Assembly (NCBI GenBank): GCA_028280785.1
Contig: JANQLF010000212.1
Coordinates: 1-64,000 of the forward strand
From: Planctomycetota bacterium
GTDB taxonomy: Bacteria > Planctomycetota > UBA11346
DNA: 64,000 nt
Direction of reading: 5' to 3'
Part shown: positions 1 through 34,921 of the stretch, one piece after another
Position numbering within the stretch: position 1 is the first letter of the stretch
Layout of the letters: the number at the start of each line of letters is the position of its first letter
Translations under genes and position numbers: made by a program
The notes under the pieces: model-generated
The model's database searches: none
What the model saw: the letters and a program-made list of their open reading frames with translations, nothing else
What the model was told of the DNA's origin: nothing

Positions 1-1991
1 AAGAGCTCTTCATACTCACCACGCTTGGACAATTCTTCCCATTTATAAAAATTAATTGCTGGCAGGTATTCTTTATTAGTGACCGTATTCCATTGTTCAT
101 AGGCTGCATCAATCTCACCAAGACGGTAATGACATAAGCCAATTTTATAGGTCAGTTCTTCTTGAAGATCCTGTTTGCGAGCGATCTTTTGAATGCTGGT
201 ATATCGTTCTAAGGCGCCTTCATTCGCCTGATTATCTAAAAGCGCATCAGCAATTTTCATATCGACGCTGCGTGCAGCCAGTGGTTTTTTATAAATAGCA
301 ATATTATCAATTGTTTTCTCGTCATAGAATGCATAGATACCAATATAACCTGCATTGAGCGGTAATATAAGATCATAAGAGCAAATTAATCTACCATCAA
401 TAAAGGTACGTAACTTTTTACCATCTATTTCAGCACGAATTCGATACGTCACACCGTGCTTTAATTCAAACGGTTCAAAATCCAAACGACCTTGCGGCGT
501 CGCTATGGTCGAACCTGCGTTATCGTAGGCGCCATTTTGCAGATAGTAAAGCTGGACGCGCTGTCCACGTTTCTGCGCATGAATATCTGGGCTATAGACA
601 ATAGAGAGATCACCGGCTTGAGAACCAGGCAGCATTTGCCCATCATACTCAATAGCTACAGGACCGTAGATACGCTCTTTAAACCACAATGTAAATGCTG
701 GCCCATCTTGCGTACGTAGGAGGTCTTCATCTAAGGCAAAAGTGCCTCCATGCGAAAGCCAGTGTTCCTGCCAATTCGATGGATTACCATCCCCTAAATC
801 AAATGTTTCTGAATAATACGGCTCGCCCCACGAATTATGTGATTGGAAAAGCTGATAAATATTAATAAATGCCAAGAAGAAAAACAGGACGCCAACAACA
901 ATCATCAACGTTGACTTAACTTCTTGCTCTGTTTGCTCGCCACTGTCGACGACTCCAGATTGGAAGGCTTTTAATTCATCAAGCAGTTGCTCGACAGATT
1001 GATAACGCTCGTCTGGATTTTTCTGTAAACATTTGAAGCAAATATCCGCCAATGCATTTGGCACCGAGCGAGCCTGCTCTTCACTCAGATCATCAATAGC
1101 ACCCTCTAATTTCGCTGACCAAAAATCATCAAAATTGTCACGTTTAACATGCCCAACTTTAAACAGTGCATGGAATAGTGTTGCGCCTATAGCATACACA
1201 TCAGAACGATAATCAATTTCTGTACATAAAGCCTGTTCAGGGCTCATATACAATGGTGTACCGCAGAGAATCCCCGTATCATTTTCATCATTTTGCAGGT
1301 CCACTGCTGCATCCCAACCAATGATATAAACCTCACCATGAGCACCGATAACTATCTTCTCAGGCTTAATGTTACGATGTAAAACCTGATGATTGTGTGC
1401 ATAGGCCATTGCCTCACAGACTTTGATAAAAATCCCGGTTAATTCATTAATGGTATCATATTTGTGAATGTAGGAATTCTCATTCTCTACACTGGAACTC
1501 TCTATCAATTCAGTCAGTGGAGCACCATTTACTTTTTTCATGGTACAGAAAATCTGCTGATTATCTGAATATTCTAAATCATAGACCGGTGGGATACCAG
1601 GATGATCGAAATAACTGATGATTAAAGCTTCATGAATTAATTTATGCGCATTATCTAATTTATGACCCTGGTCACTGCTAGCGACTTTGACAGTCACCGT
1701 CCGATGCAAATTAAGATCTGTAACTTCGAACACACTGCTATTGGTGTCCGGGGTAAGCTCTTTATCAATCTGATAGCGGTTTTCTTTTTTACCCTCACCT
1801 TCAATATCTAATTTACTCAGAATCGATTCAGAACGAATGTGAACTTCTAAGGCATCGTTATCTGCCTCCGTCTGATCCTCTTCAAAAACCTCAAGTTCAT
1901 CAGTGGTATCATGCAATGAGATAGCAAATTTACCGTCAACTATCGTTTGATAGAGAACGTCATCCAACCCTTTCTTTTGCTCGTCACTCAT
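1..1991 (-). CDS. Membrane-anchored Ser/Thr pseudokinase with lectin-like domain (C-terminus cut by window)
   Basis: About 663 residues are visible. A Ser/Thr-kinase fold spans about residues 70-345, a single membrane segment lies near 361-380, and a LamG/DUF1080-like beta domain starts near 388, followed by the start of a TPR-like region. It is a clear paralogue of the kinase at 13972-17109. The catalytic residues are lost: the HRD Asp is Asn (HRN, 205-207), the KPxN Asn is Lys212, the DFG-equivalent reads GWD (225-227), and the Gly-rich loop has no glycines (LTPDTNSSVF). Lys102, the helix-C Glu121 and the GTPxYMSPEQA segment remain. The ATG overlaps the end of the upstream gene as ATGAGTGA, so translation is probably coupled. 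I infer a signalling pseudokinase, perhaps an allosteric partner of the intact paralogue. The reading frame is open throughout, so it does not look like a decaying pseudogene. Confidence 0.88.
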   Translation of the reverse strand, partial: MSDEQKKGLDDVLYQTIVDGKFAISLHDTTDELEVFEEDQTEADNDALEVHIRSESILSKLDIEGEGKKENRYQIDKELTPDTNSSVFEVTDLNLHRTVTVKVASSDQGHKLDNAHKLIHEALIISYFDHPGIPPVYDLEYSDNQQIFCTMKKVNGAPLTELIESSSVENENSYIHKYDTINELTGIFIKVCEAMAYAHNHQVLHRNIKPEKIVIGAHGEVYIIGWDAAVDLQNDENDTGILCGTPLYMSPEQALCTEIDYRSDVYAIGATLFHALFKVGHVKRDNFDDFWSAKLEGAIDDLSEEQARSVPNALADICFKCLQKNPDERYQSVEQLLDELKAFQSGVVDSGEQTEQEVKSTLMIVVGVLFFFLAFINIYQLFQSHNSWGEPYYSETFDLGDGNPSNWQEHWLSHGGTFALDEDLLRTQDGPAFTLWFKERIYGPVAIEYDGQMLPGSQAGDLSIVYSPDIHAQKRGQRVQLYYLQNGAYDNAGSTIATPQGRLDFEPFELKHGVTYRIRAEIDGKKLRTFIDGRLICSYDLILPLNAGYIGIYAFYDEKTIDNIAIYKKPLAARSVDMKIADALLDNQANEGALERYTSIQKIARKQDLQEELTYKIGLCHYRLGEIDAAYEQWNTVTNKEYLPAINFYKWEELSKRGEYEEL

Positions 1992-3279
1992 TATTCACCT
2001 CAATTCCCGACTGCGTATTTGCATCAGGTTCGACAAATTCTGAAAGCATCCGTATGCGAGCTGACTCGGTAAGCTTGCGTAGCGGATTATATCTATCCTC
2101 GTAGAACGCTTTCATAGATTTGGCAAAACGTATATCGATGACCTTAAATTCATAAGCAGCTTGCGAAGTTTCAATGAAACCAGCAATCAATCCAGAATAA
2201 TGACCGCCACCGCTCACTTCGTATTCGTTATTTTTTTCAACCAAAGTCAAACTCTTGTCACCATTGAATTCATAAATTTCTAGACTCTGTGCAAATTCAT
2301 CGCTCGCTAATCCTAGGTCTCTACACGCGCCACCACGCTTATCACCCGTTCCCGCCAACAGTAAACTCGCTAAATAAATTCCTTTTTTAGATACACCTTC
2401 TTTTTCCAGTTGCATGGGTACGGCCTCACAAAAAACAAATTTAATATTTTTCTGTTTAAGCAAGGCATAAAACTGTGCGAGATTTGATTTATTATCAAAT
2501 TCTTCCCACAATTGTCCAACCATCACCTGCTTATCACTGCTCACCCACATACCAAAGCGGCGCAATAATGACATACCTTGTAATAAATTATTACACGATT
2601 GACTAATCGCAGTCCATTCAACGCGTTCAACGAATGTAATAGAAGCATCATCAGCATCTAAAATGATTGGTGGTGCTTCAAGACCATCCCGCGTATGCAG
2701 CCACATACGATCACGATAAGCTGGCAAGCGATGTGGGTGAGCAACAAACTCTTCACTGACTGGACTAGCAAAGTGTTGCAGTGCCGCTACCTCTCGACTC
2801 GGCTCCCAAAATGCACCTAATAAAATCACTATACATAATAAAGCACTTATACTAACAACCACTAATGAATTTAATTGGTATTTACGACCATAATTACTGC
2901 GAACTATTTGTGCTTCTGGTTTTTTCGCCGTTGGTGCTTGCTGCTCATTCTTTTGCGCTGCTTGATTTGCAGCAGCGTCAATTTGATCTATAGCACTTTG
3001 TGCAGCGGTATTCAATAATGATTTACTGCGTTGTATCGAACGCGTAACAGCTTTTTTGACCTGCTTTTTCTGGCGACTGGTTAACTGTTTTTGTGGAGCA
3101 GTACCGGTTTTCTTTGCCGTCGCAGTTAGCGACTCAGCTGTCCCCACCTTTTCAACAGTACCATCACTCATTAATTGAATGACATTTTTACAGCCACTAC
3201 AACGCAATTTTCTGCCAATTAAACTGGCAGAATGCGGGTATTGCTTCTCACAATACGGACAGGCAAAAGTCTTGGCCAT
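1984..3279 (-). CDS. Zinc-ribbon, single-pass membrane protein of unknown function
   Basis: The protein starts with a zinc-ribbon of the MJ0042/zinc-finger type (Cys7, Cys10, Cys27, Cys30). A Lys/Gln/Ala-rich linker, probably cytoplasmic and partly helical, follows (about 45-125), then one membrane helix (about 138-157) and an approximately 270-residue domain outside the membrane that I do not recognise. The start is the ATG preceded by GGAG at five bases; a TTG three codons upstream is less likely. It lies between the SUMF1-domain gene and the pseudokinase, overlapping the latter by 8 nt, so it is probably the pseudokinase's partner in the same transcript. PVC kinase loci often carry such zinc-ribbon membrane proteins, but no specific role can be assigned. 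Confidence 0.75.
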   Translation of the reverse strand: MAKTFACPYCEKQYPHSASLIGRKLRCSGCKNVIQLMSDGTVEKVGTAESLTATAKKTGTAPQKQLTSRQKKQVKKAVTRSIQRSKSLLNTAAQSAIDQIDAAANQAAQKNEQQAPTAKKPEAQIVRSNYGRKYQLNSLVVVSISALLCIVILLGAFWEPSREVAALQHFASPVSEEFVAHPHRLPAYRDRMWLHTRDGLEAPPIILDADDASITFVERVEWTAISQSCNNLLQGMSLLRRFGMWVSSDKQVMVGQLWEEFDNKSNLAQFYALLKQKNIKFVFCEAVPMQLEKEGVSKKGIYLASLLLAGTGDKRGGACRDLGLASDEFAQSLEIYEFNGDKSLTLVEKNNEYEVSGGGHYSGLIAGFIETSQAAYEFKVIDIRFAKSMKAFYEDRYNPLRKLTESARIRMLSEFVEPDANTQSGIEVNNE

Positions 3280-3362
3280 AGTCTCCAAGCTTAGCCCCGA
3301 GCCCTAAAAGGCAATCTCTTCACGAAGCATGCAAGTCCTTTGTCTGTAACAATTTTGATCGA

Positions 3363-5306
3363 TTACGGCTGGGGTATAATGAAGCGGAAACCAACGTCAT
3401 CATAAGCCTTGTCTTCACGTGCCGTGCGTGCTGCACTACGACAACGATCCGCACCCAATTTCCATGATCCGCCTCTGGTCACATATTTTTTAGGGGTAAT
3501 TGCTGAAGATGATTTACCAGGACTAACTCGGCCATCCCATTCAGTGCTACACCATTCTTCAACATTGCCATGCATATTATAAAGTCCCCAGGCATTACGC
3601 TCGTAATAGGCCATACCAATTTCAGCAGCAGACCAATTTACAGAAATTTCATCATCCATATACCAACTTTTACCAAATCCAGCCGTTCCACTAAATTTAT
3701 CAATTTGATCGGAACTAAATGGTGGTGTACCTTTATAATTCGCAAAATATTTAGAGGGGTCTATTCCTGTTTTCTGTGAATTACCATAAGCCTTATTAAT
3801 AACCTCAAAATATTTCTTAATATATGCATTGGTTGTCATTGAATGTCCTTTGGGTACCTGACTTTTAGCATAAGAAGACAAGTCAATACCGGGTACAGAT
3901 GGACCTGTTGCGTTGAGAGCCGTGCCGAGGGTCCAAAATGGAGTGGGTGCATAAATATTTAATACTGGATACGTTCGGTCAGCACCGCTTGCTGTGCCAT
4001 TCGCTTCTCTCACCGTGAAGTTACTCGCAGTTCTATCAGTAATGCGAATCATTTCTCTATATTCCAATTGCTTACCATTATGCTCGTCCTTATTCGCAAC
4101 TAAGTCAACTAAATTAGTAGCAACATAATCAAGTGGATTATTATACTCGCCTTGATCTATTAAATCTAAATAACGATAATACATGTTTGCAGCAGAGGGA
4201 TTGCCATACGGACGTGGATAAAACTTAGTTCCATCTGAATAATATAACATCAATATCGGTGTGTACTCACCATAGGTATCGAGCACATAACGATGTTGAT
4301 AACGACTATCGAATGCGACCAATTTCGATCCTATAACCGCCGAACCAGTAAGCGTTAATTGACCGCGGATATCAGAGCCCATCGTTCCCCACACCGCTGT
4401 TTTATCGGCATTGACATAATTGATACCAACTTTCCACGGACTAGTGTAACCATAGTCTGCATCGCCAGGTTGAGCTGCAGGATTATAATTCGCATCACCC
4501 GCCCACATATCATCAATATTGATACCATTAAAATTTGGGAAAAGCATTTTACTTGCCGTCACCTCAATGTCACCAACGGTGGTTTGAGTCGAATTCAATC
4601 CATTTAAAAGTCGGCCAGAATTAAATGCCGTTGCAGTGCCAGCACGACACAAATATTCCCATTCTTTTTCGGTCGGTAAACGTGCATTATTTCCTAAAGA
4701 AGTGAGGAATGCCTTTACTCTGGTCAATGTTTGTAATTCAACTGGACGTTTGGTCATATCACCGCCAAAAAATGCGACTGTTGTATCCTTATTAGCATCA
4801 GCCTGTCCGTAGCCTGCCTGATCAAATGGAATACGTTCAGTTAACACAACACCGGTTACCGCTTCCCATAATTTCTGTGAGCATTCTTGTGCGGCAACCC
4901 ACATCGCTCTATTTCCGTTTATATCTGACAACGGTACGCGAATTTGTGGCTTCTCACTTGGCAAGGCTCCTTGTTCGTCTATTGGCGCACCCATATAGAA
5001 TGCGCAACCAATGCCACCCTTACCATAATCAGGTTCCGTTGGAACAATGTAACGCATTTCCACCACAACAATTGACCCATCAGCATGCGGAACTTCTAAA
5101 TTAGCCCACCAACCATACGAATCACTGCCATAGTCATAATCGCTATGATCATCACTACCACCAGCAGGTGTTTTATCTGCCACTGCAGCATCAGCACCGC
5201 TACTTACACCAACCCATCCAGGCCAAGAAGGCTCCGTAGGCAGGGTGGCTGCAGATAATAATCCGGTGCAAATAATACATAAACAAAAAAGATATAAATG
5301 TCTCAT
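3363..5306 (-). CDS. Secreted SUMF1/FGE-sulfatase-domain protein, cassette 1
   Basis: A signal peptide (MRHLYLFCLC..., cleaved after about residue 19) is followed by a long formylglycine-generating-enzyme-like (SUMF1) fold. Landmarks are RLPTEKEWEYLCRAGT, GLYNMHGNVEEWC, RGGSW and DDVGFRF near the C-terminus. True aerobic FGEs use a Cys pair in this last region (LCxxxxC). Here the corresponding stretch reads GGSWKLGADRCRS, so the first Cys is missing and oxidase activity is not expected; a structural or ligand-binding role is more likely. The gene starts 15 nt after the GspK-like gene, with a GGAAG ribosome site, and is the sixth gene of the cassette. Cassette 2 has an equivalent at 24963-26546. 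Confidence 0.85.
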   Translation of the reverse strand: MRHLYLFCLCIICTGLLSAATLPTEPSWPGWVGVSSGADAAVADKTPAGGSDDHSDYDYGSDSYGWWANLEVPHADGSIVVVEMRYIVPTEPDYGKGGIGCAFYMGAPIDEQGALPSEKPQIRVPLSDINGNRAMWVAAQECSQKLWEAVTGVVLTERIPFDQAGYGQADANKDTTVAFFGGDMTKRPVELQTLTRVKAFLTSLGNNARLPTEKEWEYLCRAGTATAFNSGRLLNGLNSTQTTVGDIEVTASKMLFPNFNGINIDDMWAGDANYNPAAQPGDADYGYTSPWKVGINYVNADKTAVWGTMGSDIRGQLTLTGSAVIGSKLVAFDSRYQHRYVLDTYGEYTPILMLYYSDGTKFYPRPYGNPSAANMYYRYLDLIDQGEYNNPLDYVATNLVDLVANKDEHNGKQLEYREMIRITDRTASNFTVREANGTASGADRTYPVLNIYAPTPFWTLGTALNATGPSVPGIDLSSYAKSQVPKGHSMTTNAYIKKYFEVINKAYGNSQKTGIDPSKYFANYKGTPPFSSDQIDKFSGTAGFGKSWYMDDEISVNWSAAEIGMAYYERNAWGLYNMHGNVEEWCSTEWDGRVSPGKSSSAITPKKYVTRGGSWKLGADRCRSAARTAREDKAYDDVGFRFIIPQP

Positions 5307-5321: not shown

Positions 5322-7958
5322 CTATTGTTTAAATTTTGATGCCTCTATGCGATCATCAGTTTGTATGATCACATGATTATCAGAGAAATCGCCATCATTA
5401 TTGGGATCTATGCGATAAACAAAATAACGGTCAGCGACCGCTAGAGGCCGTTTATTCATAATATCATAAACCTCGCCACGAATAAAACCATTCATGAGCG
5501 TACTCTTACCAATGTAAAAACGACCGGTCTTAGCGAATGGTTTAATCGGATAGGTGGTATTGCCAGTTAGCCAAATATTATTCCAATCAAAAAAGTTACC
5601 GGTGCTGGTTATTTCTTCCCAACGGTCACCGCTTAGTTTTCGTTTCACTTTTCCACCTTCAAAACGATACCAGCCAGCTTTTTTCATATAGTCCTCAGAA
5701 CCATCTGAAGCCAAACGCACGTAGGGACCCAAACCATCCCACCACCATGACCAGACGCGCTGGTTATTATTATAATCCCACCAACCACTAACAGTGCTCT
5801 CAGCATGGCCATCGCCATTAAAATCAACTGCTATATTGGCGTAATCCTTTGAACCGACTACATAATCCGGATTCGCCTTCCCAAATAAACTAATCATGAA
5901 ATCATTAAGCACATATTCCATTGCTCGCGTATTGGCACCCGGCTCCAGTTCAGAATAGATTTCCCAATCACCACTGCCTGAACCAAATGATCCGCGACCA
6001 ACAAATGTACCCCCACCTGCAAGTAAAGTCCTACCATTTGGATCATAAACAGCATCACGACTATAGCTGCCCTGCGAAACTGCAGGATTGCTGCCACTTA
6101 TTTCACCTTCACCTAATATACGATAGACTTCACGTATAATCATTTGCATCATTTCATCTTCACTTGTTGACGCAGAAACTGGTTTAATATGTGAATTATT
6201 TTTACCACCACGATAACGCCATGCGCCCCAAGGTCCGGCATTTTCTTCATCCCCAGTAATTAAATTCTTTTCTTCGTCCCATAAAACTCGTGCGTCATCA
6301 ATTGCTGAATGCAAAGCAACCATAATATCGTGAACATAGGAGAGCCGCGTGCCTATTGTTGGAAATTCCTTATGATATAAATTCGGGTTTAACGAATGTC
6401 TTTTCACTTGACCGTTGCCATACCAATATGTTTCCGTACCTATTGGCCGACTTGCATTAGCCCCTATACCACTAACCGGAACATTACGACCTGAATCTAA
6501 TGCCAAGGGAAATGCCTCAGGATAGTCACGGCCGAATAAATCGGACGGGTGAATCCTTGCTTTATGTGCATTCGCAGCACTTTCCATATTTCCTTTAGTC
6601 ATGGTGTAATTTGAGTTATGCCATGTGGTAATCGTTTTCAGATGACTATGCAGGCCAAAAACCGCTGCACGTAAATTGGTATTTGGAGCGGATAATAAAT
6701 TAATTTTCCAAGGGGTTGACACGGGATCAGCATCAGCAGCGGCACCGTCATATAAGGTTTCGTCTAGCATACCAAGACCCCAGGGAGTCAGGAAAAAATT
6801 ATTTGCATAGATACTACCCTTTTTATAGACGGTGCGTAGATGAGACCAGGTCTGTACCCTACCTTTAAGGCCGGGAGATAAGGGGGCGAAATTTCCGCCG
6901 TAACGTGTACTCCAGGTTAAATCGCCATCACGAAATGCGCGCTCAACAAGTAGACGCCAATCGTCACGCATTGCCTGATTACCAGTCTTTATCGCAGATT
7001 TTGCTAAGCCATCACCGCCGACCTCGACATTAGTAGCCACCGACTCGTCATCGAGTGGATCAAAGCTATGACTTGCTCGATATTGTTTTCCGCCGCTAAC
7101 AGCAGCCCGCATACTTTTAATGCTACGACCATAGGTTTTTAAATAATTTTGATAGCGAATGTAATGCGCACTATCAGTTGATGCTGAGCCACGATTAATT
7201 GAATCAGTCCCTAATTCATGAGGAAAGTTATTATTAATCGTATGCAAACCACTGAGATCTAGCGCCTGCGCTGTATAACGGAGCACATATCTAGATGAGC
7301 GACGAATATCAGCTTTTTCTACAGGTGTTTTTGAATCATCAATTTCAACGGTTTTAAATTCAGCGTCCAAATATTCGATATTATGCCAGCGTGACCAATA
7401 TTGGTTTTTCCCATTAAACCGTTTGGTATGACCAAAGAGCAAGGTAAACATGTCAACAGTACCCAACATATCTGCATCTATGAGATCATAGAGGCGAGTA
7501 TTACTGTTTACTATTGGACTACTCGAAACCATCGTGGTACTTGGCATACCAGTAGAACTAGCCGGAACAGACAACGCTTGTCCCTGCATCGGGTCACCGT
7601 TTGGAAAATCGACTGTATCAGTAAATGGATTGCCATCAGGATCAGTCACTGGTTCAAATTCCCGACGCCATTGCTGATTGGCAAGGCTAGTATAATTAAG
7701 CGGATCATCATCTGTTTTGCGAGTGGGTTTCGCTGCAGAATCATTAAAACAACGAATGAGATGGGCCTGCGCTTGCTGCACTGCGATTTCTGCCTTGACC
7801 TGTGCCGCAACACCTATCGTCGAATTATATTGACGACCGACAAGTTCTAAAAAAGTAATCGCAATAGTGGTTAAAAGCACCAATAGAGAAATAACCATGA
7901 TGAGCGCAGAACCATGACGCTGATTAGTTAAATTGTTACACATAATATCGTTCATCAT
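5322..7958 (-). CDS. GspK-like giant minor pseudopilin, cassette 1
   Basis: It has a short basic leader ending QRHG, then SALIMVISLLVLL..., a prepilin-type hydrophobic helix without Glu at +5, as in GspK and PilX. The predicted cleavage is after Gly16. It has about 878 residues against roughly 320 for T2SS GspK. The large outer part contains acidic, Ca-binding-looking segments (DFNGDGHAE, DPNNDGDFSD). I recall similar long proteins as the Verru_Chthon cassette protein A family (TIGR02600), but I could not test this. The start is the ATG with AAGG upstream; the longer frame begins at TTG. In T2SS, GspK caps the pseudopilus tip; the same role here is inference. Confidence 0.8.
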   Translation of the reverse strand: MMNDIMCNNLTNQRHGSALIMVISLLVLLTTIAITFLELVGRQYNSTIGVAAQVKAEIAVQQAQAHLIRCFNDSAAKPTRKTDDDPLNYTSLANQQWRREFEPVTDPDGNPFTDTVDFPNGDPMQGQALSVPASSTGMPSTTMVSSSPIVNSNTRLYDLIDADMLGTVDMFTLLFGHTKRFNGKNQYWSRWHNIEYLDAEFKTVEIDDSKTPVEKADIRRSSRYVLRYTAQALDLSGLHTINNNFPHELGTDSINRGSASTDSAHYIRYQNYLKTYGRSIKSMRAAVSGGKQYRASHSFDPLDDESVATNVEVGGDGLAKSAIKTGNQAMRDDWRLLVERAFRDGDLTWSTRYGGNFAPLSPGLKGRVQTWSHLRTVYKKGSIYANNFFLTPWGLGMLDETLYDGAAADADPVSTPWKINLLSAPNTNLRAAVFGLHSHLKTITTWHNSNYTMTKGNMESAANAHKARIHPSDLFGRDYPEAFPLALDSGRNVPVSGIGANASRPIGTETYWYGNGQVKRHSLNPNLYHKEFPTIGTRLSYVHDIMVALHSAIDDARVLWDEEKNLITGDEENAGPWGAWRYRGGKNNSHIKPVSASTSEDEMMQMIIREVYRILGEGEISGSNPAVSQGSYSRDAVYDPNGRTLLAGGGTFVGRGSFGSGSGDWEIYSELEPGANTRAMEYVLNDFMISLFGKANPDYVVGSKDYANIAVDFNGDGHAESTVSGWWDYNNNQRVWSWWWDGLGPYVRLASDGSEDYMKKAGWYRFEGGKVKRKLSGDRWEEITSTGNFFDWNNIWLTGNTTYPIKPFAKTGRFYIGKSTLMNGFIRGEVYDIMNKRPLAVADRYFVYRIDPNNDGDFSDNHVIIQTDDRIEASKFKQ

Positions 7959-7979
7959 CTTGCCTTTGTGCTGTCTCAA

Positions 7980-9353
7980 TTACTGTGCAACCTGGATGCC
8001 TTGCACATAATAAATACAGCTATAACCAAATTTCAGCGCATAGCGTTCAAATGCCGCTATTTCATCAGTTCGTGTTGCTAACGAATCATTCAAAACTTTA
8101 TCTCTAATAGCTGCACTTAACAATTCTTGCGTATCACCATTATCATTGAAATCTTCTTCATCTTTAATTTCATTACTGATAGCATGCAACAAGAAAGAAA
8201 CGCGAACTCCAATTGGCCTGTTCTCGTATCCATCACCCGTGGCTGGATGAAGCCCTGAAAAATCCAAGCTTTTATTGCCATCGGATAGTCGATCTGTTTC
8301 ATCTCCACTTTCCAAAACTTCGCCGTCACGACCAATCAGTTCTAATTGCATATATTCAACGCCATCAAATAACGGCATCATTTGACTTGGATAAAGTTGG
8401 TGCTCTTCGCCATCTGAATCGGTAAACGTATCTGTCGCACCTACTAAATTAAGACGATCTTTATTAACCGAATTACCATCAGCATTTCTTACCGCATACG
8501 CATCATTTTGACCATCATCAGGCATATTATCATCTGCTACATCTGGATCACTTAATTGTATTTCATTACCAGTACAAATGGTGGTATACAGGTGGCGATA
8601 ATCAAAAGGTGCATTTTCCCAAACTTGTGGCACCGCAGGTACGCCCCAACCAGTTTTCTTACCAAGAAATAATCTATTCCTTGCATTTTGATATATCGCT
8701 ACTTTTTCAGTTGCAGCAGCAATACAATCTCCATCAGAACCGACTGTATTAATATTACCTTTCCCTTCAAAAAAGTCATAATGTTGCTGAACCATCGGCG
8801 TGATGGCATTGGCATGGACACCAGTTGACGGTCTCGTTGAGAACTTCGGCGTCCATAAATACTCTTCTGTATTAGCATGCCAATCCGTGCCATTATTACC
8901 TAGGCGATAGAGCGTTAATTCATTTACACGCGATAAGCCTCGATCTAAAGAGCCGTCTCCCCAGCGATAACGAATCCATACCGTATCGCACATGCGATGT
9001 TTAGTGAAAAAACGTGATTCAAATGGATTGGTTCCAGGTTTAAGGGCGTCTTTTCTGAAAACACCCGGATGCAGATCCGTAACCTGGCGCATAAAGGTAA
9101 TCGTATATGGTTTATCTTCAGTCTGTAGATGCACGGCAGCCACTGGCAACATGGCTCTAAAATCGCGCTCTAACTGACGCTGAATAGTATCAGCACGTGT
9201 ATGCAAATTTAAAATTTGCAAAGCTTTTTCGCTAGCATTCGATAAACGGGCAAAGGCTACCGTTACCAAGCCCATAAGGCTGACAAATAAGGTAGTTGCG
9301 ACCATAAGTTCCACAATTGTGAAGGCGGAAGCATTTGTTTTATTAGCCATCAT
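7980..9353 (-). CDS. GspJ-like pseudopilin, cassette 1
   Basis: A class III prepilin signal, NASA/FTIVELMVATTLF, has Ala at -1 and Glu at +5. It is followed by a helical stalk (about 20-75) with a GspJ-like ...QRQLERDFRAM segment and a large C-terminal domain. It has 457 residues against about 200 for GspJ. It probably belongs to the Verru_Chthon cassette protein C type (from memory). The ATG overlaps the preceding gene's TGA (ATGATG), with AAGGGG upstream, indicating coupling. It is paralogous to the protein at 29416-30771, sharing layout and the acidic loops toward the C-terminus. Confidence 0.8.
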   Translation of the reverse strand: MMANKTNASAFTIVELMVATTLFVSLMGLVTVAFARLSNASEKALQILNLHTRADTIQRQLERDFRAMLPVAAVHLQTEDKPYTITFMRQVTDLHPGVFRKDALKPGTNPFESRFFTKHRMCDTVWIRYRWGDGSLDRGLSRVNELTLYRLGNNGTDWHANTEEYLWTPKFSTRPSTGVHANAITPMVQQHYDFFEGKGNINTVGSDGDCIAAATEKVAIYQNARNRLFLGKKTGWGVPAVPQVWENAPFDYRHLYTTICTGNEIQLSDPDVADDNMPDDGQNDAYAVRNADGNSVNKDRLNLVGATDTFTDSDGEEHQLYPSQMMPLFDGVEYMQLELIGRDGEVLESGDETDRLSDGNKSLDFSGLHPATGDGYENRPIGVRVSFLLHAISNEIKDEEDFNDNGDTQELLSAAIRDKVLNDSLATRTDEIAAFERYALKFGYSCIYYVQGIQVAQ

Positions 9354-9790
9354 TTATACCCCTTGGGTAATATTTGATGGCAGAATATTTGATGGACGAG
9401 AAGGCCGTCAGTATCGTCACCGCCTGAGTAGACCTCCACCTTAACTTCCACGTATGTTCCAGCGTCATTATCTAATGTAACTGACTTGCTCGTATCGATG
9501 GTGCGAACGATGAAATAATTGTTCGCCCAACCCTTTGCCTCAGCATCACTATTTGAAAGATCCAAAGGATTGCGTTTTTTATCCATTAAAATGCCAGCAT
9601 CGGCCAAGGCTGCACGACCAGTTTTCAATGCGGTTAAATTAACCCGTATTTCTTCAGTCCATGACAATGCCAACATATAAACTGACACGACCGCAGTTAG
9701 GCCTATTGATAAAATGCCAATAGCTAGAGCAATTTCCAATAAGGTAAATGCACCCCGTTGTTGAGCCCGATGAAACTTGGAACGGCGCAT
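9350..9790 (-). CDS. GspI-like pseudopilin, cassette 1
   Basis: This 146-residue protein has a basic leader, cleavage motif RGA/FTLLEIALAIGIL with Glu at +5, a hydrophobic helix and a small beta-rich head (YVEVKVEVYSGG). Its size and the ...RAALADA... stalk fit GspI, and also the Verru_Chthon cassette protein B description as I recall it. The start codon directly follows the TAA of the GspH-like gene, and its stop overlaps the next ATG, so the five pseudopilin genes form one tightly coupled operon. Confidence 0.8.
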   Translation of the reverse strand: MRRSKFHRAQQRGAFTLLEIALAIGILSIGLTAVVSVYMLALSWTEEIRVNLTALKTGRAALADAGILMDKKRNPLDLSNSDAEAKGWANNYFIVRTIDTSKSVTLDNDAGTYVEVKVEVYSGGDDTDGLLVHQIFCHQILPKGYK

Positions 9791-11170
9791 TTATTTGATC
9801 CCTCTTGGATACGGGTCGCGCTGTAAGAGGTCATCAGCAGTAATTTGCAATTCCTCATGATCATTGGTGCGCACTTCAGATAAACCATCTACTTTATTGA
9901 GATGCACGCGCACAAATGGGGTAATTGATTCAAAGGCATCTTCAACTGAATTAAATTTATTATAGGCCTTCTGCCCTGTCATAATTGTACTGGCCTCGGA
10001 ATAAAGTTCATCTTCAGCATCAATGTCTGGGGCTAAAGTGATTGCAACTGCACTAGTGCGATTATCAAATTCCATACCCATATACGCACGACCTGCCTGA
10101 CTCGAAATACGATCTCTTGAAACCGTAATACGATTAAAATACAGCGCTCGCGCATGACCCTTAGCAACACTCACCGAACCATCTGGGCCAAATATAATCA
10201 TAAAATCAGACCAATAGCCATTGACAACTGGTCGTACTTTTTTTGCTAAATAGGTTCTATCAGGACCAACATAATCTCTAGCAACCTTATAACGCTTGCT
10301 AATTGATTTATCTCGCGTGCCTATATTTGATGTTGAAGGCGGCTCCACACACTCACCTGGATAAACACCTGTCGATCCAATTAGGGTATTTCCGCTAAAA
10401 TCCCAATAATGCCAAATGCGACCCCACACTTCATCAGGATTAAGATTGGTGTCTTGGTCAACATTATAGGTAACAGGACCATCATAGCCTTGGTAATCTA
10501 AACCAGTACCCGGCTCTCTGCCTGCACTCACCCAGTCAGCATCAATTTCAGGGTTATATGCGCCCCAAGGATATAAAATATTCGTTGTATTATCGTAGTA
10601 ACCAAACCACGGACGCGGATAAGTCTCGTGGACTTTACCTGGATATAATTCATTGGTATCGCTCAATGCTAAAAAACGCACACCGCGCGATAAGTAACGA
10701 CGTGCACCGATTTGCACTTTTTCCATTGCTTCAGTGTAATCCTCTAATGCGAAGTAAGAATACGTATCTCGATCGTTAGTGGCCACCAAGGCAACCGGCG
10801 GTAAATTCTCCTTTCGCAAGGTTCCTCCACCGTAGGACTGTGCATTGAATTGCGATTCGTCTGGGCCAATTAAGGCATACCAATGACGCCCGATAAAACT
10901 TTCGTCATCTAAATCTTTAACCGATTGATTTTTGAAAACGGTACCATCTCCAGCATTTTCGATATGAAAAACAACGCCATAAGAACGATTCGTACCCATA
11001 GCTAAATTACGTGCCTTGAGCAAAGTAGCCTGTAATTCATGGGCATCTGCAAGAATTAAATCCTCTTGGGACTCAGAATAGGTCACTACCATCATGGTTG
11101 ACAACAAAGCAATGATACTAATCACCACCAACAATTCTATTAAGGTAAAGGCTTTAAATGAATTACTCAT
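9791..11170 (-). CDS. GspH-like pseudopilin with large head domain, cassette 1
   Basis: The prepilin signal is FKA/FTLIELLVVISIIALLS (Ala at -1, Glu at +5). The stalk contains ELQATLLKARNLAMGTNRS, typical of GspH, and FIGRHWYALIGP is shared with the cassette 2 copy at 31189-32601. It has about 459 residues, over twice GspH. The ATG overlaps the stop of the upstream gene (ATGAGTAA) and has GAGG seven bases upstream; a TTG four codons earlier is less likely. It resembles Verru_Chthon cassette protein D by recall. A minor-pseudopilin role in priming assembly would follow the T2SS model. Confidence 0.8.
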   Translation of the reverse strand: MSNSFKAFTLIELLVVISIIALLSTMMVVTYSESQEDLILADAHELQATLLKARNLAMGTNRSYGVVFHIENAGDGTVFKNQSVKDLDDESFIGRHWYALIGPDESQFNAQSYGGGTLRKENLPPVALVATNDRDTYSYFALEDYTEAMEKVQIGARRYLSRGVRFLALSDTNELYPGKVHETYPRPWFGYYDNTTNILYPWGAYNPEIDADWVSAGREPGTGLDYQGYDGPVTYNVDQDTNLNPDEVWGRIWHYWDFSGNTLIGSTGVYPGECVEPPSTSNIGTRDKSISKRYKVARDYVGPDRTYLAKKVRPVVNGYWSDFMIIFGPDGSVSVAKGHARALYFNRITVSRDRISSQAGRAYMGMEFDNRTSAVAITLAPDIDAEDELYSEASTIMTGQKAYNKFNSVEDAFESITPFVRVHLNKVDGLSEVRTNDHEELQITADDLLQRDPYPRGIK

Positions 11171-12344
11171 TATAATCCTCAATCAATAATACATTGTCAT
11201 CGTTTTCAGATTCTGGTGGCAAGCAGTTGAATTCACCATCGCCACCTGCACTACCGAGGAAAAAACTAGCCGCGCGACCAGGAATAGAATTATAGAGAAT
11301 ATTCCCCCAATCATCGCGGTCTACTTTACCATCTTTATTATGGTCTATAAGATCTTTATCATCTAATTTTTGATCACGATTAACGTCGGTCAAATCTTCA
11401 TGCGGTGGCTCGGTGACCCAATCTTCATTGTTGATACTACCATCTCTATTGCGATCGGTAATCGGCACTCGACCACCAAGTGGCTTGATAAATGAGCGCT
11501 CGTAAGCGCCTGAAAAAAAGCGCTTCTCGCCAATAGCTGGTGTTGAATGAGCAACATAGATCAAGGGATTTTCCCATGCATCGACGATAGTTTGATCATC
11601 AATGAATTTACTATCAAGGTCATCCAAATCTAAACAGGGGTGAGTCATATAACGACGACGTACTAAATCACTTTCGAGCATGCCTTTATAAATCATATAT
11701 TGCAATTTATAATACCCACGACCTGAAAATAAGTGGGAATTCGCCCAATCGTACCAAAAATAATCGCCCTTTAACCCTTTTTTAAAAGAAGCTGGCTCTT
11801 CCCAACGAATAGTTAATTTATAATAATAGGTGTCGAGATAGTTCTTAGCAGACATACCCTTTTCGCTTGCAATCCAGGATTCTATTTTTGCTAAGGCTGC
11901 ATCTAATTTTGCATGTGCTGTATTACGCGTTGTCGCAGATTTTAAGTTATGATGTTTCTTGAAATAATCACCAGTTTGATAAGGGTTCCATTCCAGGCTC
12001 ACCTTTTGCGCCTCATCAGTCATAAAAATCTTTTCTGCTTGGCTCATTTTATGGGTTAGGCGCCAAACCAATTGCTGCTTATCCCATGATCCAGTATTGG
12101 TATCTGGATACCAAGAACCACTTTCTGGATCGCTAGAGCTACCAGTTGGCAAAGGCACCGCACCGGTTTCAGCCTCAAAGCGATCGAGGGCCACGCGTAG
12201 TGCACTCAACAGGACCTTGGTCTCATTTCGGTCGACACTACTTTGGCCAATGTTGATGAATGGCAGGATGAGTGCCGACAAAACCATGATGATAGCGATG
12301 ACCACCAGCAGCTCGATCAGGGTAAAAGCAGATCTACTTAACAT
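11163..12344 (-). CDS. GspG-like major pseudopilin with three EF-hand-like loops, first gene of cassette 1
   Basis: The signal MLSRSA/FTLIELLVVIAIIM (Ala -1, Glu +5) heads a 393-residue protein; GspG is about 145. The GspG-like stalk and ENPLIYV segment are followed by three calcium-loop motifs: DRNRDGSINNED (297-308), DVNRDQKLDDKD (320-331) and DHNKDGKVDRDD (334-345). Classical GspG needs one Ca ion in its C-terminal loop. Here the Ca sites look elaborated into dockerin/EF-hand-like repeats. It is the promoter-proximal gene of the cassette, facing the GntR-type regulator gene across a 541 bp intergenic region. Confidence 0.82.
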   Translation of the reverse strand: MLSRSAFTLIELLVVIAIIMVLSALILPFINIGQSSVDRNETKVLLSALRVALDRFEAETGAVPLPTGSSSDPESGSWYPDTNTGSWDKQQLVWRLTHKMSQAEKIFMTDEAQKVSLEWNPYQTGDYFKKHHNLKSATTRNTAHAKLDAALAKIESWIASEKGMSAKNYLDTYYYKLTIRWEEPASFKKGLKGDYFWYDWANSHLFSGRGYYKLQYMIYKGMLESDLVRRRYMTHPCLDLDDLDSKFIDDQTIVDAWENPLIYVAHSTPAIGEKRFFSGAYERSFIKPLGGRVPITDRNRDGSINNEDWVTEPPHEDLTDVNRDQKLDDKDLIDHNKDGKVDRDDWGNILYNSIPGRAASFFLGSAGGDGEFNCLPPESENDDNVLLIEDYNE

Positions 12345-12885: not shown

Positions 12886-13950
12886 ATGGACACTAAATTA
12901 GACAAAAAGAGCGGCACGCCCCTCTACCTTCAGATCAAAGAGCGCATCAAAAAGAGCCTGCCCACTGATGAGCAGGAAGAGGATGTACGCATTCCCTCTG
13001 AGCGTCAGCTCGCTGACATGTTTGGCGTGAGCCGCATGACCGCCAGACAGGCACTCAAGTCGCTTAGCGAAGAAACGGCACTCGACCGCAATGAGCAAGG
13101 GACCTTCCTCAGTAGAGCCAATACCAAAAATCTACACACCATACGCTTTGTATTCCCCCGCAACTGGGCCGACTTATCAGACAATTCCTTTTATGGAAAA
13201 ATATTTGCTGGTGCTGAACAAAAATCACACGAATACGATTGCGACCTCCTGTTCTCAACCATCGACAATAATAAGCAATTACTTGATAAAATTGGTCCGA
13301 GTGAAGCCGTTGTCTTAGTCGCTGAAACCAACAAAAAAACAATCAATGCTTTTCAAGGTACTGGTTGCCTTCTGTGCTTAGTCGACTGCAACGTCGGTAC
13401 CAAAAATCTTGGCTGGGACCAAGTTAACATCGACAACATTCAAGGTTCAGCCATCGCAGCCGATGCCTTTGTCAACAACAATCATAAAAAGTGCGCTTAC
13501 ATCGCCCCTTATTTCAAAACCCCCTCATTTGCCTTCAAACAACGTCAAAAAGGTTTCGCTGACCGCCTCAAAGAACACGGCCTAAAAATCACTGATAAAG
13601 ATATATTTAAAATGGGCTGGGAAGATGGCGATGAAATAAATAAGCCCATCCTCAAACAAATAGTCGACAAGGGCTATACCGCGGTCTATGCCAGCCAGGC
13701 ACACTTCGCTGTTGATTTATTGCAATTAGCTCGTGAAGGAAATGTCGATGATAAAATTAGCTTCATTGGTTTTAGTGACGATAATCTGACGAAAAATGCC
13801 AGCCTCAATACTATCGATGTACCTGAAATGCAAATTGGTGAAATGGCCATCGAACAGTTAGTCAAATCTTATAACAATGGCTGGTGTCTTAAACAGAACG
13901 CAAGCGTTTCCTCCAACTATATCGATAGAGGTTCTGTTCACACGCTGTAA
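12886..13950 (+). CDS. GntR/LacI-type transcriptional regulator 1
   Basis: The N-terminal winged helix of the GntR family (about 10-80) contains RIPSERQLADMFGVSRMTARQALKSL and the wing NEQGTFL. The effector domain (about 85-354) is of the LacI/periplasmic-binding type (AraR-like organisation), so the ligand is probably a sugar or glycan derivative. It is a close paralogue of the protein at 23898-24962, with identical SRMTARQALKSL recognition helices. It is transcribed away from cassette 1 and followed 21 nt later by the Ser/Thr kinase gene, suggesting co-transcription. Palindrome site 1 lies upstream, so control of cassette 1 and autoregulation are likely inferences. Confidence 0.88.
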   Translation: MDTKLDKKSGTPLYLQIKERIKKSLPTDEQEEDVRIPSERQLADMFGVSRMTARQALKSLSEETALDRNEQGTFLSRANTKNLHTIRFVFPRNWADLSDNSFYGKIFAGAEQKSHEYDCDLLFSTIDNNKQLLDKIGPSEAVVLVAETNKKTINAFQGTGCLLCLVDCNVGTKNLGWDQVNIDNIQGSAIAADAFVNNNHKKCAYIAPYFKTPSFAFKQRQKGFADRLKEHGLKITDKDIFKMGWEDGDEINKPILKQIVDKGYTAVYASQAHFAVDLLQLAREGNVDDKISFIGFSDDNLTKNASLNTIDVPEMQIGEMAIEQLVKSYNNGWCLKQNASVSSNYIDRGSVHTL

Positions 13951-13971
13951 TAACAGTAGTATTTGAACACC

Positions 13972-16900
13972 ATGGCAGACGCATTAAGCAGTGAAGAAGT
14001 CAAGGAACTAGCCAAGACGCTTGGCGAGACCATTAGCGATAGCACTGATGATGAATTGCACAGTAGTAATGCCGAAACCATTGATGACGGACAAGAAAAC
14101 TCCGAAATCCATATTGAACAAACCGAAGACGATGAAGACACAACGCCATCAATAAGCGGCGATCATATTTTACACAAGTTTGAAATATCATCAGAAATCC
14201 AAGAACGCTATGCAACCGGTGAGGTACTTGGCGAAGGCAGTGGCGGAGCGGTATTCGATTTAACTGATAATAATTTAGATCGAACTATAGCCGTTAAGTT
14301 TTTATCTAAAGAATATGCCAAGAGTAAATTCCGTATTGAAAAATTTATGCGCGAGGCCCTTATTACTAGTCGTCTCGATCACCCAAATATTTTACCGATT
14401 TATGATCTTGAGTCATCAAAAGATAAACAAATTTATTATACCATGAAAAAAGTTGAGGGCATTCCCTTAACCGAATTAACTGAAGTCAGTCATGATGGTA
14501 CCAGTACAGATGAACAAGAACTGATTAATGCATCGAACAGCCTTGGTGAAATAGTAAATACCTTTATTAAAATTGGCGAAACTATCGCCTATGCGCATTC
14601 ACGTGGCATCATTCATCGCGATATAAAACCAGATAACGTCATGCTCGGTCATTACGGTGAAGTCCGTGTTGTCGATTGGGGCATCGCCGTTGATACCGAA
14701 AAACAAAAAAAGCATAACGGTAAAATGTCCGGCACCCCACATTACATGAGCCCAGAGCAAGCTAACTGTGAACAAGCAGATGAACGCAGTGATATTTATT
14801 CTATTGGCGCCACCCTGTTTCATGTATTGTTTAAACGCACTCCTATTATTGCCAAATCACATGAATCATTTTGGCAACAAAAGAAAAATGGCATTTATCA
14901 GATCCCCAATGAAGCTGAACAAGAACATGTGCCAGCACCCTTGTTGGCCATTTGTTTTAAATGCATGGGAAAGGAACGCGAGAACCGTTACCAAACATCT
15001 GCTGAATTAGTTGAAGATCTCAAAAACTTTCAAATCGGTGGTTCAATTGGTGCCTATCATTATAGCTTCGTTGAATTGGCTAAAAAATGGATCAAGCACA
15101 ATATCAATAATCTGAAGTGGGCTGCACTGGTTTTTATTATTATTGGCGCAGCAAGCACATATTTTTACCAACAACATCAACGTGAATACGCAGGCTGGGG
15201 CAGCCCTATTTACACTGAAACTTTTGACAATGCGGAGCAGTGGAACGAAAACTGGGTACTTACGTCTTCTGGCGCTGCAGAGATTGCCGACAAGGTCATG
15301 CAGACTAAAGGCGGATCTGGATTTTACGCATTTTATAACCATCCCATTCAAGGTGGTATGCGCATTGAATTTGATGCAAAAATACTGCCGGGGACATCGC
15401 CTGGCGACATGAGCGTAATTTTCGCCCCGGACATTCATGACACCGTGCGCAATAGTAGAACACCAAGAAATCGATACTACCTTCAGCACGGCAGTCAAGG
15501 CAATGAGTCATCCGCCATTCTAGGGCCGAACGGTCGCCTCGACTACGTTATCAATCCATTGAAACCAGATACTGTCTATCGTGTCCGTGGTGAAATCGAT
15601 GGTAAGTCGATTCGGCTTTATTTAGACAATAAACTCATTTGTTCTTATGACCTGCTATTTCCATTAACGTCTGGTTACATTGGTATTTATTGTTTCTATC
15701 CCGGTAAACAAATAGACAACATCCGCATTTACAGCAAAGAACTTCCTGAAATTACCAATATTATTAAAACTGGTGACCTGCTGTTTGATAATAAACTTTA
15801 CGACCTAGCAGCTCAGCGCTATTTAAAAATCAGTCAAACACACCCAAAAACTCAGCTAGGTGACGAGGCTCTGTATAAATATGCACTGTGCATGCATAAA
15901 TTAGGTAAAGAAGCGAAAGCATTCGAAATCTGGGACACATTAAAAAATAGTAGTTACAAGGACCATATAAGTTATTATCGTTGGAGTGACCTCTATACCA
16001 AACAGTCCTTTGATACCTTACTCAAAGAAATGGATCAATTATTCGCTCAAAGCGAAAAAAACACACGGCATAACATAAAAGCTAAATGGGCAACGTTTTT
16101 AAAACAAGCTCAAGATAATCACCACATGAAATTCCTTGAAGATCTGCTCACCTTCAGATCCAAACATTTCCCAAATGATCAGGTATTCAGCTTTCAGACT
16201 TTTAGGGCTTTACGTCTCCTTGGCGAAGCATCCAAAGTTCTGGAATTATTCCCACAGCAGACGTTAATAAAATGTCGCGCCATGTTAGCTATGGGCAGAT
16301 TTGATGAAATTATCAAAGATTATCCCGAACATAAAATTCTTGTTTCGCTAGCGCTGTCACTATCTGGTCAATACAACAAAGTCATTGCCGAATACTCCGA
16401 GTTCCAGGGCGATTACCTGACTTCCCTTATTCATGCCGGCTACCTGGAAAAAGCAAAACAGGAATTCGCAGGCACTAAACACATGCCGCTTATCCTATTC
16501 GAAGCAGGGGATTACGATGAACTGATTAAGCATTACCCAGACAGCAGTACGGCAAATCACGCAAAATACATAAAAACAGGTGATTTGGATGCCTATCTGA
16601 GGAGCCTGGATCAGGAAGCACTGAATTCAGGTTACTATCAAACTCTCATTGCACTAAGAAAACACATACAAGGTGACAAATCAGCCATAAATAAAATCAA
16701 AAGCCTTGTTAGCCAGGTAAACGCAACGGAATTATTGTGGGCAACGAACATGTTTGAGCGGAGATTTATCGACGCTGTGCTAACTGCCCTCGACGGCGAT
16801 GATCAGCTGCTGGAATCACGTGTTAGGTCGCTCTATAAAGAAAAGAGAGAAATGTCTTACATGCGACCATGGCACTGTGCGGCTCTGCTCCTGGGTGAAA

Positions 16901-17109
16901 TTGATGAAGAAACATTTCTTAAACAGCCTTTTCAATGGGACATCAAAGAAGACCTGCATTTATATAAAGGCATTCATGAGGACCTACAGGGCAATAGGCA
17001 GGCAGCGATCAAGCACTACACTGCCCTTAAAAACCTAAAACACTATGAATCTAGAGATTCGATTACCGTCGAAATATTTGTCGACTATCGCCTCAAAGCG
17101 CTGCAGTAA
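13972..17109 (+). CDS. Transmembrane Ser/Thr protein kinase with LamG/DUF1080-like and TPR-like regions
   Basis: An acidic N-terminus (1-75) precedes an intact kinase domain (about 80-355): Gly loop GEGSGG at 87-92, Lys109, Glu128, HRDIKPDN at 215-222, DWG at 235-237, and GTPHYMSPEQA. A membrane helix lies near 382-399. Outside the membrane is a beta-sandwich (about 405-590, DUF1080/LamG-like, possibly glycan-binding), then a long helical TPR-like array to the C-terminus. The longest frame begins at TTG; the ATG at 13972 is preferred, without a clear Shine-Dalgarno. It is the catalytically intact paralogue of the pseudokinase at 1-1991. Its stop codon abuts the convergent gene's stop (TAATTA). 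Confidence 0.87.
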   Translation: MADALSSEEVKELAKTLGETISDSTDDELHSSNAETIDDGQENSEIHIEQTEDDEDTTPSISGDHILHKFEISSEIQERYATGEVLGEGSGGAVFDLTDNNLDRTIAVKFLSKEYAKSKFRIEKFMREALITSRLDHPNILPIYDLESSKDKQIYYTMKKVEGIPLTELTEVSHDGTSTDEQELINASNSLGEIVNTFIKIGETIAYAHSRGIIHRDIKPDNVMLGHYGEVRVVDWGIAVDTEKQKKHNGKMSGTPHYMSPEQANCEQADERSDIYSIGATLFHVLFKRTPIIAKSHESFWQQKKNGIYQIPNEAEQEHVPAPLLAICFKCMGKERENRYQTSAELVEDLKNFQIGGSIGAYHYSFVELAKKWIKHNINNLKWAALVFIIIGAASTYFYQQHQREYAGWGSPIYTETFDNAEQWNENWVLTSSGAAEIADKVMQTKGGSGFYAFYNHPIQGGMRIEFDAKILPGTSPGDMSVIFAPDIHDTVRNSRTPRNRYYLQHGSQGNESSAILGPNGRLDYVINPLKPDTVYRVRGEIDGKSIRLYLDNKLICSYDLLFPLTSGYIGIYCFYPGKQIDNIRIYSKELPEITNIIKTGDLLFDNKLYDLAAQRYLKISQTHPKTQLGDEALYKYALCMHKLGKEAKAFEIWDTLKNSSYKDHISYYRWSDLYTKQSFDTLLKEMDQLFAQSEKNTRHNIKAKWATFLKQAQDNHHMKFLEDLLTFRSKHFPNDQVFSFQTFRALRLLGEASKVLELFPQQTLIKCRAMLAMGRFDEIIKDYPEHKILVSLALSLSGQYNKVIAEYSEFQGDYLTSLIHAGYLEKAKQEFAGTKHMPLILFEAGDYDELIKHYPDSSTANHAKYIKTGDLDAYLRSLDQEALNSGYYQTLIALRKHIQGDKSAINKIKSLVSQVNATELLWATNMFERRFIDAVLTALDGDDQLLESRVRSLYKEKREMSYMRPWHCAALLLGEIDEETFLKQPFQWDIKEDLHLYKGIHEDLQGNRQAAIKHYTALKNLKHYESRDSITVEIFVDYRLKALQ

Positions 17110-23882: not shown

Positions 23883-23896
23883 GTGGTATATACCAC
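23883..23896. promoter_or_regulatory. Candidate operator GTGGTATATACCAC (site 3)
   Basis: A perfect 14 bp palindrome containing the same 12 bp core, one base before the ATG of regulator 2. Occupancy would block ribosome access or transcription start, consistent with autorepression, and could also affect the divergent SGNH hydrolase gene. Confidence 0.72.
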
Positions 23897-23897
23897 T

Positions 23898-24962
23898 ATG
23901 AGCAAGCAAATAGACAGAGAAAGCGATAAACCCTTATACGTACAGCTCAAAGAGATCGTACATGGACAGCTACCAAAGGGCGAAAGCCTCGACCTGGTAC
24001 GCCTCCCCTCTGAGCGGAATCTAGCCAGTGAGTATGGCGTGAGCCGTATGACGGCGCGTCAGGCGCTCAAGTCTTTGGGCCAGGAGCTGGCCATTCAACG
24101 CAATGGCCAAGGCACCTTTTTCGATAAGAAATCTACGCACTCTCTTGATCTCATCCGTTTTGTCTTTCCCAATAATTGGTCGACGCTCTCCGAAAGCGCC
24201 TTCTATTCGAATATTTTTTCTGGAGCTGAACAGCGAGCCCATGAATACGATTGCGACTTGCTCTTTTCGACACTGGGTAGTGATAATAAACTGTTGTGTA
24301 AATTGCGAGCAACAGATGCAATCATTTTAGTTGGTGAAACCGACAAACAACGTATTCGACGCATTCAAGAGATAGGCTGCAAACTGTGTTTAATCGATTG
24401 TAATGTAAGTGCAAATAATCTCGGCTGGGATCAAGTTGTTGTTGATAATAGCCAAGCGTCTGAACTGGCTGCTGATGTATTTCACCATCACAAGCATACA
24501 AAGTGCGCTTTTATTGATAGCTACAGCAAAGCAAAATCATTTGCCTTTAAACTGCGTCACAAGGCATTTGCCAGTCGTCTCAAAGACCACGGCTTGAATC
24601 ATGCCAGAAAAGACAGCTTTGAAATGGACTGGGATAGCATCGAGGACAACACCGAACGTATCCTCAATCAGTTAATAGACAAAGGCTATACAGCAGCCTA
24701 CGCTGCCCACAGCCATTTTGCCGTCGATTTATTGGAAACTGCGCGTAAACATAAATTGGAAGATAAAATCAGTCTGATCGGTTTCGCTGACGACACTTTA
24801 TGCAGAAAAGCTGCCTTAAATACGATAAGTGTTCCCGAGCAATTAATTGGCGAAACTGCAATTGAACAAATTATTAAATCGCACAATAACGGTTGGTGCT
24901 TAAAACAAAACGCTTTGATTTCGACACATTACGTCGATCGCGGATCAGTAAAAACTGTTTAA
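23898..24962 (+). CDS. GntR/LacI-type transcriptional regulator 2
   Basis: About 354 residues with the same organisation as regulator 1. A GntR winged helix (RLPSERNLASEYGVSRMTARQALKSL, GQGTFF) is fused to a LacI-type effector domain with shared blocks such as EYDCDLLFST, LGWDQV, NNGWCLKQNA and YVDRGSV. ATG at 23898 gives the same N-terminus as the paralogue; the longer frame would begin at a GTG inside the operator palindrome. The stop codon directly abuts that of the convergent SUMF1-domain gene (TAATTA). Recent duplication of the regulator along with the cassette is inferred. Confidence 0.87.
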   Translation: MSKQIDRESDKPLYVQLKEIVHGQLPKGESLDLVRLPSERNLASEYGVSRMTARQALKSLGQELAIQRNGQGTFFDKKSTHSLDLIRFVFPNNWSTLSESAFYSNIFSGAEQRAHEYDCDLLFSTLGSDNKLLCKLRATDAIILVGETDKQRIRRIQEIGCKLCLIDCNVSANNLGWDQVVVDNSQASELAADVFHHHKHTKCAFIDSYSKAKSFAFKLRHKAFASRLKDHGLNHARKDSFEMDWDSIEDNTERILNQLIDKGYTAAYAAHSHFAVDLLETARKHKLEDKISLIGFADDTLCRKAALNTISVPEQLIGETAIEQIIKSHNNGWCLKQNALISTHYVDRGSVKTV

Positions 24963-26546: not shown

Positions 26547-26548
26547 TA

Positions 26549-32601: not shown

Positions 32602-32605
32602 CGTA

Positions 32606-33337: not shown

Positions 33338-33520
33338 GTGCTTGCGGTGATTCGTCATTTGAGACGGAGGCTTTTTCAATCCGGACACGACTAAATTGGC
33401 ACAAAAACCAGTGGTTTTGCTAGTGTGTCATAAGGCAGCGCAGCAGAAGATTACACATCGAAACCATGCAATGCAGCATACAGGTATGAAATATATAGAA
33501 TCGAGATCGATTTCTTACAA

Positions 33521-34807: not shown

Positions 34808-34825
34808 TTATGCTCTCCTGATAAT

Positions 34826-34839: not shown

Positions 34840-34921
34840 TTAATAGGTTATTAGTCAACATTTTTCCAATTTTTCAATAGATACTAGACTATCTGATATA
34901 CTTATGTATAGCAGTTGTACG

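Follow-up and report, generated by a model that had tools for sequence, protein, structure and literature searches.

The first gene of the window, the 64,000-nucleotide stretch of Planctomycetota DNA analysed here, encodes a membrane protein whose kinase domain departs from the active form at several catalytic motifs. Is this a broken gene or a working part, and if it works, with which partner? A sequence-only reading had proposed that the protein is a pseudokinase that forms a heteromeric, glycan-sensing receptor with an intact paralogous kinase encoded across a cassette of genes.

Reading frame, domains and catalytic motifs

The genes and domains compared were the following.

1..1991, minus strand: pseudokinase receptor gene, 5' two thirds; the remainder (3' end) lies on contig G000:C98
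Within this gene: pseudokinase domain at about aa 70-345, transmembrane (TM) segment at about aa 357-385, lectin-like domain at about aa 388-572, then the start of TPR-like helices
13963..17109, plus strand: intact paralogous kinase, 12 nt downstream of the gene for a GntR-type regulator

The open reading frame at 3-1991 (minus strand) starts with an ATG at 1991 and has 663 open codons, with no stop before the contig start. Base 1 of the window is the first base of contig C184, which begins inside the pseudokinase gene, and the gene is therefore cut at the window edge. The final 99 nt of contig C98 were identical to positions 1-99 of the window, a stretch present in these two contigs only, and joining C98 to C184 gave a pseudokinase of 1000 amino acids that was open throughout. 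The order of the joined protein was N-terminal tail, kinase-like domain, one TM segment, lectin-like beta-sandwich, and TPR-like helical tail. The frame had initially been called intact, which held for the 663 codons in the window, but the gene passes the window edge and finishes on C98.

The pseudokinase domain matched the Pfam family Pkinase (E 2.9e-28). When aligned to the active paralogue, it had LTPDTNSS at the glycine loop compared to LGEGSGGA, HRNIKPEK compared to HRDIKPDN, and IIGWDAA compared to VVDWGIA. All of the motif changes listed in the sequence-only reading (HRD to HRN, KPxN to KPxK, DWG to GWD, and a glycine-free loop) were thereby borne out. The beta3 Lys was kept (VTVKV compared to VAVK in the paralogue), as were the alpha-C Glu, the His of HRD, the Lys of HRDxK, and, despite the catalytic losses, a GTPxYMSPEQ activation segment (GTPLYMSPEQA). 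Because the C184 protein keeps both the beta3 Lys and the alpha-C Glu, it may still be capable of some nucleotide binding.

The AlphaFold model of the window part of the pseudokinase had a mean pLDDT of 83.5 and showed the expected helices and strands. Foldseek superposed the modelled pseudokinase domain on PknB (TM 0.87 on target), which was among the top structural and sequence matches, and the kinase fold was predicted with high confidence. A protein-kinase fold and the loss of key catalytic residues, two marks of a protein pseudokinase, were both present. The lectin-like domain resembled levanase CBM66 by profile (E 6.6e-6), the levanase entries that it matched being the CBM66 module of that enzyme, and beta-sandwich strands were visible on the AlphaFold model, so that fold and profile similarity were found together. 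Lectin-like domains of family members matched 3keto-disac_hyd and Laminin_G_3. The similarity to CBM66 is consistent with glycan sensing by the pseudokinase at the level of fold only.

A clade of pseudokinases with a shared catalytic loss

The genome encodes about twenty proteins of this kinase family. Three of them were recognised as further pseudokinases by HRN, the absence of loop glycines, and the absence of the metal-binding Asp.

C6, 42637-45786: pseudokinase paralogue
C79, 1455-4583: pseudokinase paralogue
C118, 30249-33341: pseudokinase paralogue

Trees were built with FastTree on MAFFT alignments, one alignment each. The pseudokinases of C184, C6, C79, and C118 formed a single clade with support of 1.0, nested among active kinases, and the catalytic loss in this clade would thus most simply have happened once, in an ancestor. 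HRN was found in 4/4 members; all three loop glycines, the Asp of HRD, and the metal-binding Asp of DWG were missing from every one. The DWG position read GWD (C184), GWN (C6), GWN (C79), and AWG (C118). Of the two changes put forward earlier for a conservation check, HRN was therefore constant among the paralogues and GWD was not, although the loss of the metal-binding Asp was. The alpha-C Glu was present in all four pseudokinases, and the beta3 Lys was lost in three (R, R, and H), C184 alone keeping it.

Five positions lost in 4/4 pseudokinases show 95% or higher conservation across 43 homologues that look active, and all 5 are catalytic (hypergeometric p of about 6e-4); loss confined to catalytic positions argues for more than chance drift. 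Identity between the C6 and C79 proteins was 71% in the kinase domain, 72% in the lectin-like domain, and 59% in the TPR part, and within the clade the kinase domain was conserved as well as the lectin-like domain. Taken together, the clade-wide selective loss and this conservation suggest that the fold has been kept for a non-catalytic use. A recent mutation of this copy is excluded as far as paralogues allow, because HRN is common to the whole of the well-supported clade, and a recent pseudogene was ruled out by losses common to four intact paralogues. With three relatives sharing the catalytic loss and the rest of the protein intact, the gene is unlikely to be broken, and its product probably functions without catalysis, in signalling or as a scaffold, within a pilus-like gene cassette.

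No member of the clade was found outside the source genome in 23 genomes of the order or 392 genomes of the phylum; the next-best relatives scored 540 bits, whereas the three full-length members of the clade all exceeded 1890. Scans of GTDB contigs and of viral contigs, where near records may be omitted, returned distant kinases or nothing, and a plasmid search returned kinase-domain matches only. The clade is known from one fragmented metagenome-assembled genome.

The pseudopilin cassette and candidate partners of the pseudokinase

A run of minus-strand genes encodes GspG-, H-, I-, J-, and K-like pseudopilins, an FGE-like protein, and a zinc-ribbon protein, with the pseudokinase gene last. 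At its opposite end, this cassette is flanked by divergently oriented genes for the GntR-type regulator and the active kinase.

1984..3288, minus strand: zinc-ribbon (MJ0042/LysW-like) single-pass membrane protein; 8-nt overlap with the pseudokinase start
3363..5306, minus strand: FGE-sulfatase-like (formylglycine-generating-enzyme fold) exported protein; PF03781, E 2.7e-22
5322..7979, minus strand: GspK-like pseudopilin, from a weak NF037980 match, position, and recurrence across cassettes
7980..9353, minus strand: GspJ-like pseudopilin; weak PRK08808 match, recurs in other cassettes
9350..9790, minus strand: GspI-like pseudopilin; its prepilin N-terminal motif scored slightly below the PF07963 cut-off (E 7e-4)
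9791..11182, minus strand: GspH-like pseudopilin, with a weak additional match to Verru_Chthon cassette protein D
11163..12344, minus strand: GspG-like pseudopilin; profile matches
12886..13950, plus strand: GntR-type regulator, oriented away from the cassette; has a LacI-like sugar-binding domain

The curated NCBIfam cut-offs for GspG and GspH were missed (36.3 vs 88.85 and 38.2 vs 80 bits); the prepilin N-terminal motif was present. A second, divergent pseudopilin and FGE cassette at 23883-36028 of the window includes separate GntR-type regulators and a GH10-like protein but no kinase or zinc-ribbon gene. Near the cassettes, 40272-47817 encodes two hybrid histidine kinases, both carrying receiver domains and one also CHASE3 and GAF domains.

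The zinc-ribbon gene was directly upstream of the pseudokinase gene at all four loci, and the two genes overlapped at 3 of these. The four zinc-ribbon neighbours were mutually closest among the zinc-ribbon copies of the genome, and their tree had the same topology as that of the four pseudokinases. With four taxa, agreement of this kind would by itself arise by chance about 1 time in 15, and adjacency is therefore the stronger argument for a zinc-ribbon partnership. The module of zinc-ribbon and pseudokinase genes ends a pseudopilin and FGE cassette at at least three loci and probably at the fourth: complete cassettes were present at C184 and C118, and the stretch examined of C6 shows the last genes of a cassette. 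C79 starts just before the zinc-ribbon gene and C250 stops just after an FGE gene, with 26 nt in common, an overlap from which the two are probably one cassette split by the assembly. The break between the end of C250 and the start of C79 falls at a palindromic intergenic stretch.

In trees of FGE and GspG, the cassettes with a pseudokinase were not cleanly separated from other cassettes, and we therefore claim only for the zinc-ribbon gene that it tracks the pseudokinase. The GspK sequence of C6 was left out of this comparison of cassette genes. For the zinc-ribbon protein, no structural relative was found beyond its LysW-like N-terminus. At least seven more pseudopilin and FGE cassettes or fragments were seen in the source genome (G000 contigs C205, C261, C110, C250, C236, C65, and C128; L102-L108). 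These vary, some having zinc-ribbon genes and some lacking kinases, and make up a large multi-copy family.

The active kinase at 13963-17109 (plus strand) has the same order as the pseudokinase, namely kinase, TM segment, lectin-like beta-sandwich, and TPR. An intact paralogue with the same domains across the cassette, as originally described, is thus present; it starts at 13963, and the start first given for it, 13972, is an alternative. The proposal of a pair across the cassette fared less evenly. A flanking active paralogue was found at C184, across the cassette, and at C6, tail to tail with the pseudokinase, but none was seen at C118 over some 25 kb upstream and 9 kb downstream of the pseudokinase, nor in the stretches examined around the pseudokinase of C79/C250. 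At C49 and C236, two active kinases with overlapping genes stand in tandem beside a zinc-ribbon gene. Active paralogous receptor kinases were noted as tandem pairs at L017 (6010-12665) and L021 (6362-13268), where their genes overlap and a zinc-ribbon gene lies divergent to them. With tandem pairs at C49 and C236 and no active kinase near the pseudokinase at C118 and C79, pairing recurs and a fixed pair of pseudokinase and kinase does not. Heteromeric pairing of the pseudokinase with an active kinase is plausible from these arrangements, and the zinc-ribbon protein is the better-supported partner.

At C236 and C254, and at G021:C2 of another genus, the corresponding position is taken by an active kinase of the same architecture. 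Independent degeneration was seen in another genus, where the kinase that immediately follows a pseudopilin cassette (L126, 607-3585; G018:C323) has a broken glycine loop and no beta3 Lys but retains HRD. A kinase homologue at L125, 8888-12190 (G008:C58), has HQDVKPEH and GWG replacing DWG, and is likely to be another case of metal-binding loss.

Function and comparison with known systems

We put at about even the chance that the pseudokinase is a maintained, catalytically dead, cassette-specific membrane co-receptor or scaffold that works with the zinc-ribbon protein and possibly tunes an active kinase. The zinc-ribbon protein and the pseudokinase would form an inner-membrane complex in which the pseudokinase, having lost phosphate transfer, would act as a docking or co-receptor subunit specific to the cassette. 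The extracytoplasmic lectin-like and TPR part of the pseudokinase could recognise a ligand or the pseudopilus and FGE proteins, and its kinase fold could bind and tune an active paralogous kinase, whether that at 13963-17109 or one encoded elsewhere. The arrangement may descend from two active kinases in tandem, as still found at C49 and C236.

The main rival to the co-receptor reading is a purely structural role like that of EssB/YukC, a transmembrane pseudokinase that acts as a secretion-system scaffold (PMC12599244), in which the pseudokinase and zinc-ribbon protein would couple the pseudopilins to shared secretion machinery elsewhere, with no phosphorylation signalling. The genome has several GspE-type ATPases and secretins located outside the cassettes, and all four pseudokinases follow the zinc-ribbon gene of the cassette, with an active kinase not always nearby. 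However, the active kinases of the same architecture at corresponding positions point to a regulatory ancestry, and lectin-like or TPR domains do not belong to a pilus; we regard this role as possible but unlikely.

Alternatively, the active paralogue could phosphorylate the pseudokinase, which could then recruit a phospho-binding protein, as reported for MviN of M. tuberculosis, a membrane-linked Ser/Thr pseudokinase with a carbohydrate-binding domain (PMC12599244). An active paralogue lies near the pseudokinase at two loci, in keeping with this decidedly doubtful alternative. Another nucleotide-dependent activity of the kinase fold, as in SelO or SidJ, is very unlikely: bacterial kinase folds have been repurposed (PMC12599244), and C184 retains its beta3 Lys and alpha-C Glu, but no metal ligand is conserved at the DWG position, the beta3 Lys is replaced in the other three members, and the glycine loop is gone. 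A decaying gene or assembly artefact is hardly credible and was rejected, since, although the contig break falls inside the gene, 1000 codons are open across a unique 99-nt overlap, four intact paralogues have common losses, and the kinase domain equals the lectin-like domain in identity.

The co-receptor or scaffold reading matters beyond this locus. Catalytically dead clade members and their active sister kinases occur together in one genome, several times over and accompanied by the same partner gene, and the function of a bacterial receptor pseudokinase is therefore directly testable, with the tandem active pairs as ready-made controls. Kinase-type receptors are now also linked to multi-copy pseudopilin cassettes. 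Multi-copy cassettes of prepilin-type proteins occur in a related lineage as Verru_Chthon. Proteins of our cassette matched the Verru_Chthon models weakly, without reaching their cut-offs (TIGR02596, 28.8 vs 70 bits; TIGR02599, 16.6 vs 256.5 bits), and the zinc-ribbon, FGE, and kinase parts are absent from those models. A literature search returned nothing on Verru_Chthon cassettes or on secretion, sulfatases, or kinases of Lentisphaerae, and for Lentisphaerae pseudopilins one Legionella paper only.

Bacterial pseudokinases are experimentally little explored, and paired receptor-type paralogues are not described for them in the parts of PMC12599244 considered here. Among its families, which also include ActPs1, ActPs2, CP1, and DLHK, the comparison covered the described features of ActPs3, GLW, DYD, and EssB. 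MviN, of ActPs3, resembles the window protein in being a bacterial Ser/Thr pseudokinase linked to the membrane, and the M. tuberculosis protein has a carbohydrate-binding domain, but ActPs3 deletes the activation loop; membership was rejected because the window protein retains GTPLYMSPEQA. GLW pseudokinases (GLW replacing HRD) were rejected on HRN, and DYD pseudokinases (beta3 Arg, no alpha-C Glu, DYD) on the alpha-C Glu in 4/4 members and the absence of DYD. EssB/YukC is likewise a bacterial pseudokinase that spans the membrane and is associated with a gene cluster of secretion type, but its activation loop is attenuated and its system is type VIIb secretion (T7SSb), whereas the window pseudokinase has an intact segment, lectin-like and TPR domains, and a pseudopilin cassette in place of a T7SSb locus; membership was rejected.

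The nearest catalytic families by profile and fold are PknB/Stk1 and chlamydial PknD (NF033483 and NF009651), but the window protein matches them in the kinase domain only and far below their cut-offs. Chlamydial PknD (NF009651) was rejected at 145.5 bits for the window protein and 266 for the best of the genome, compared to a cut-off of 839 bits.

Eukaryotic HER3/ErbB3 is, like the window pseudokinase, a receptor-type paralogue of active kinases with HRN replacing HRD (PMC13259870). HER3, a known allosteric activator, keeps its glycine loop and DFG, whereas the window pseudokinase has lost both motifs; HER3 is also a tyrosine kinase, whereas the window protein is of a PknB-like Ser/Thr lineage. 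Of the features expected for a HER3-like co-receptor, paralogy to an active kinase was found, with proximity at 2 of 4 loci. By analogy with HER2/HER3, the HRN pseudokinase could allosterically switch on its active paralogue in a ligand-controlled heteromer that controls the pseudopilus cassette, with several such pairs per genome, a version that we consider rather unlikely.
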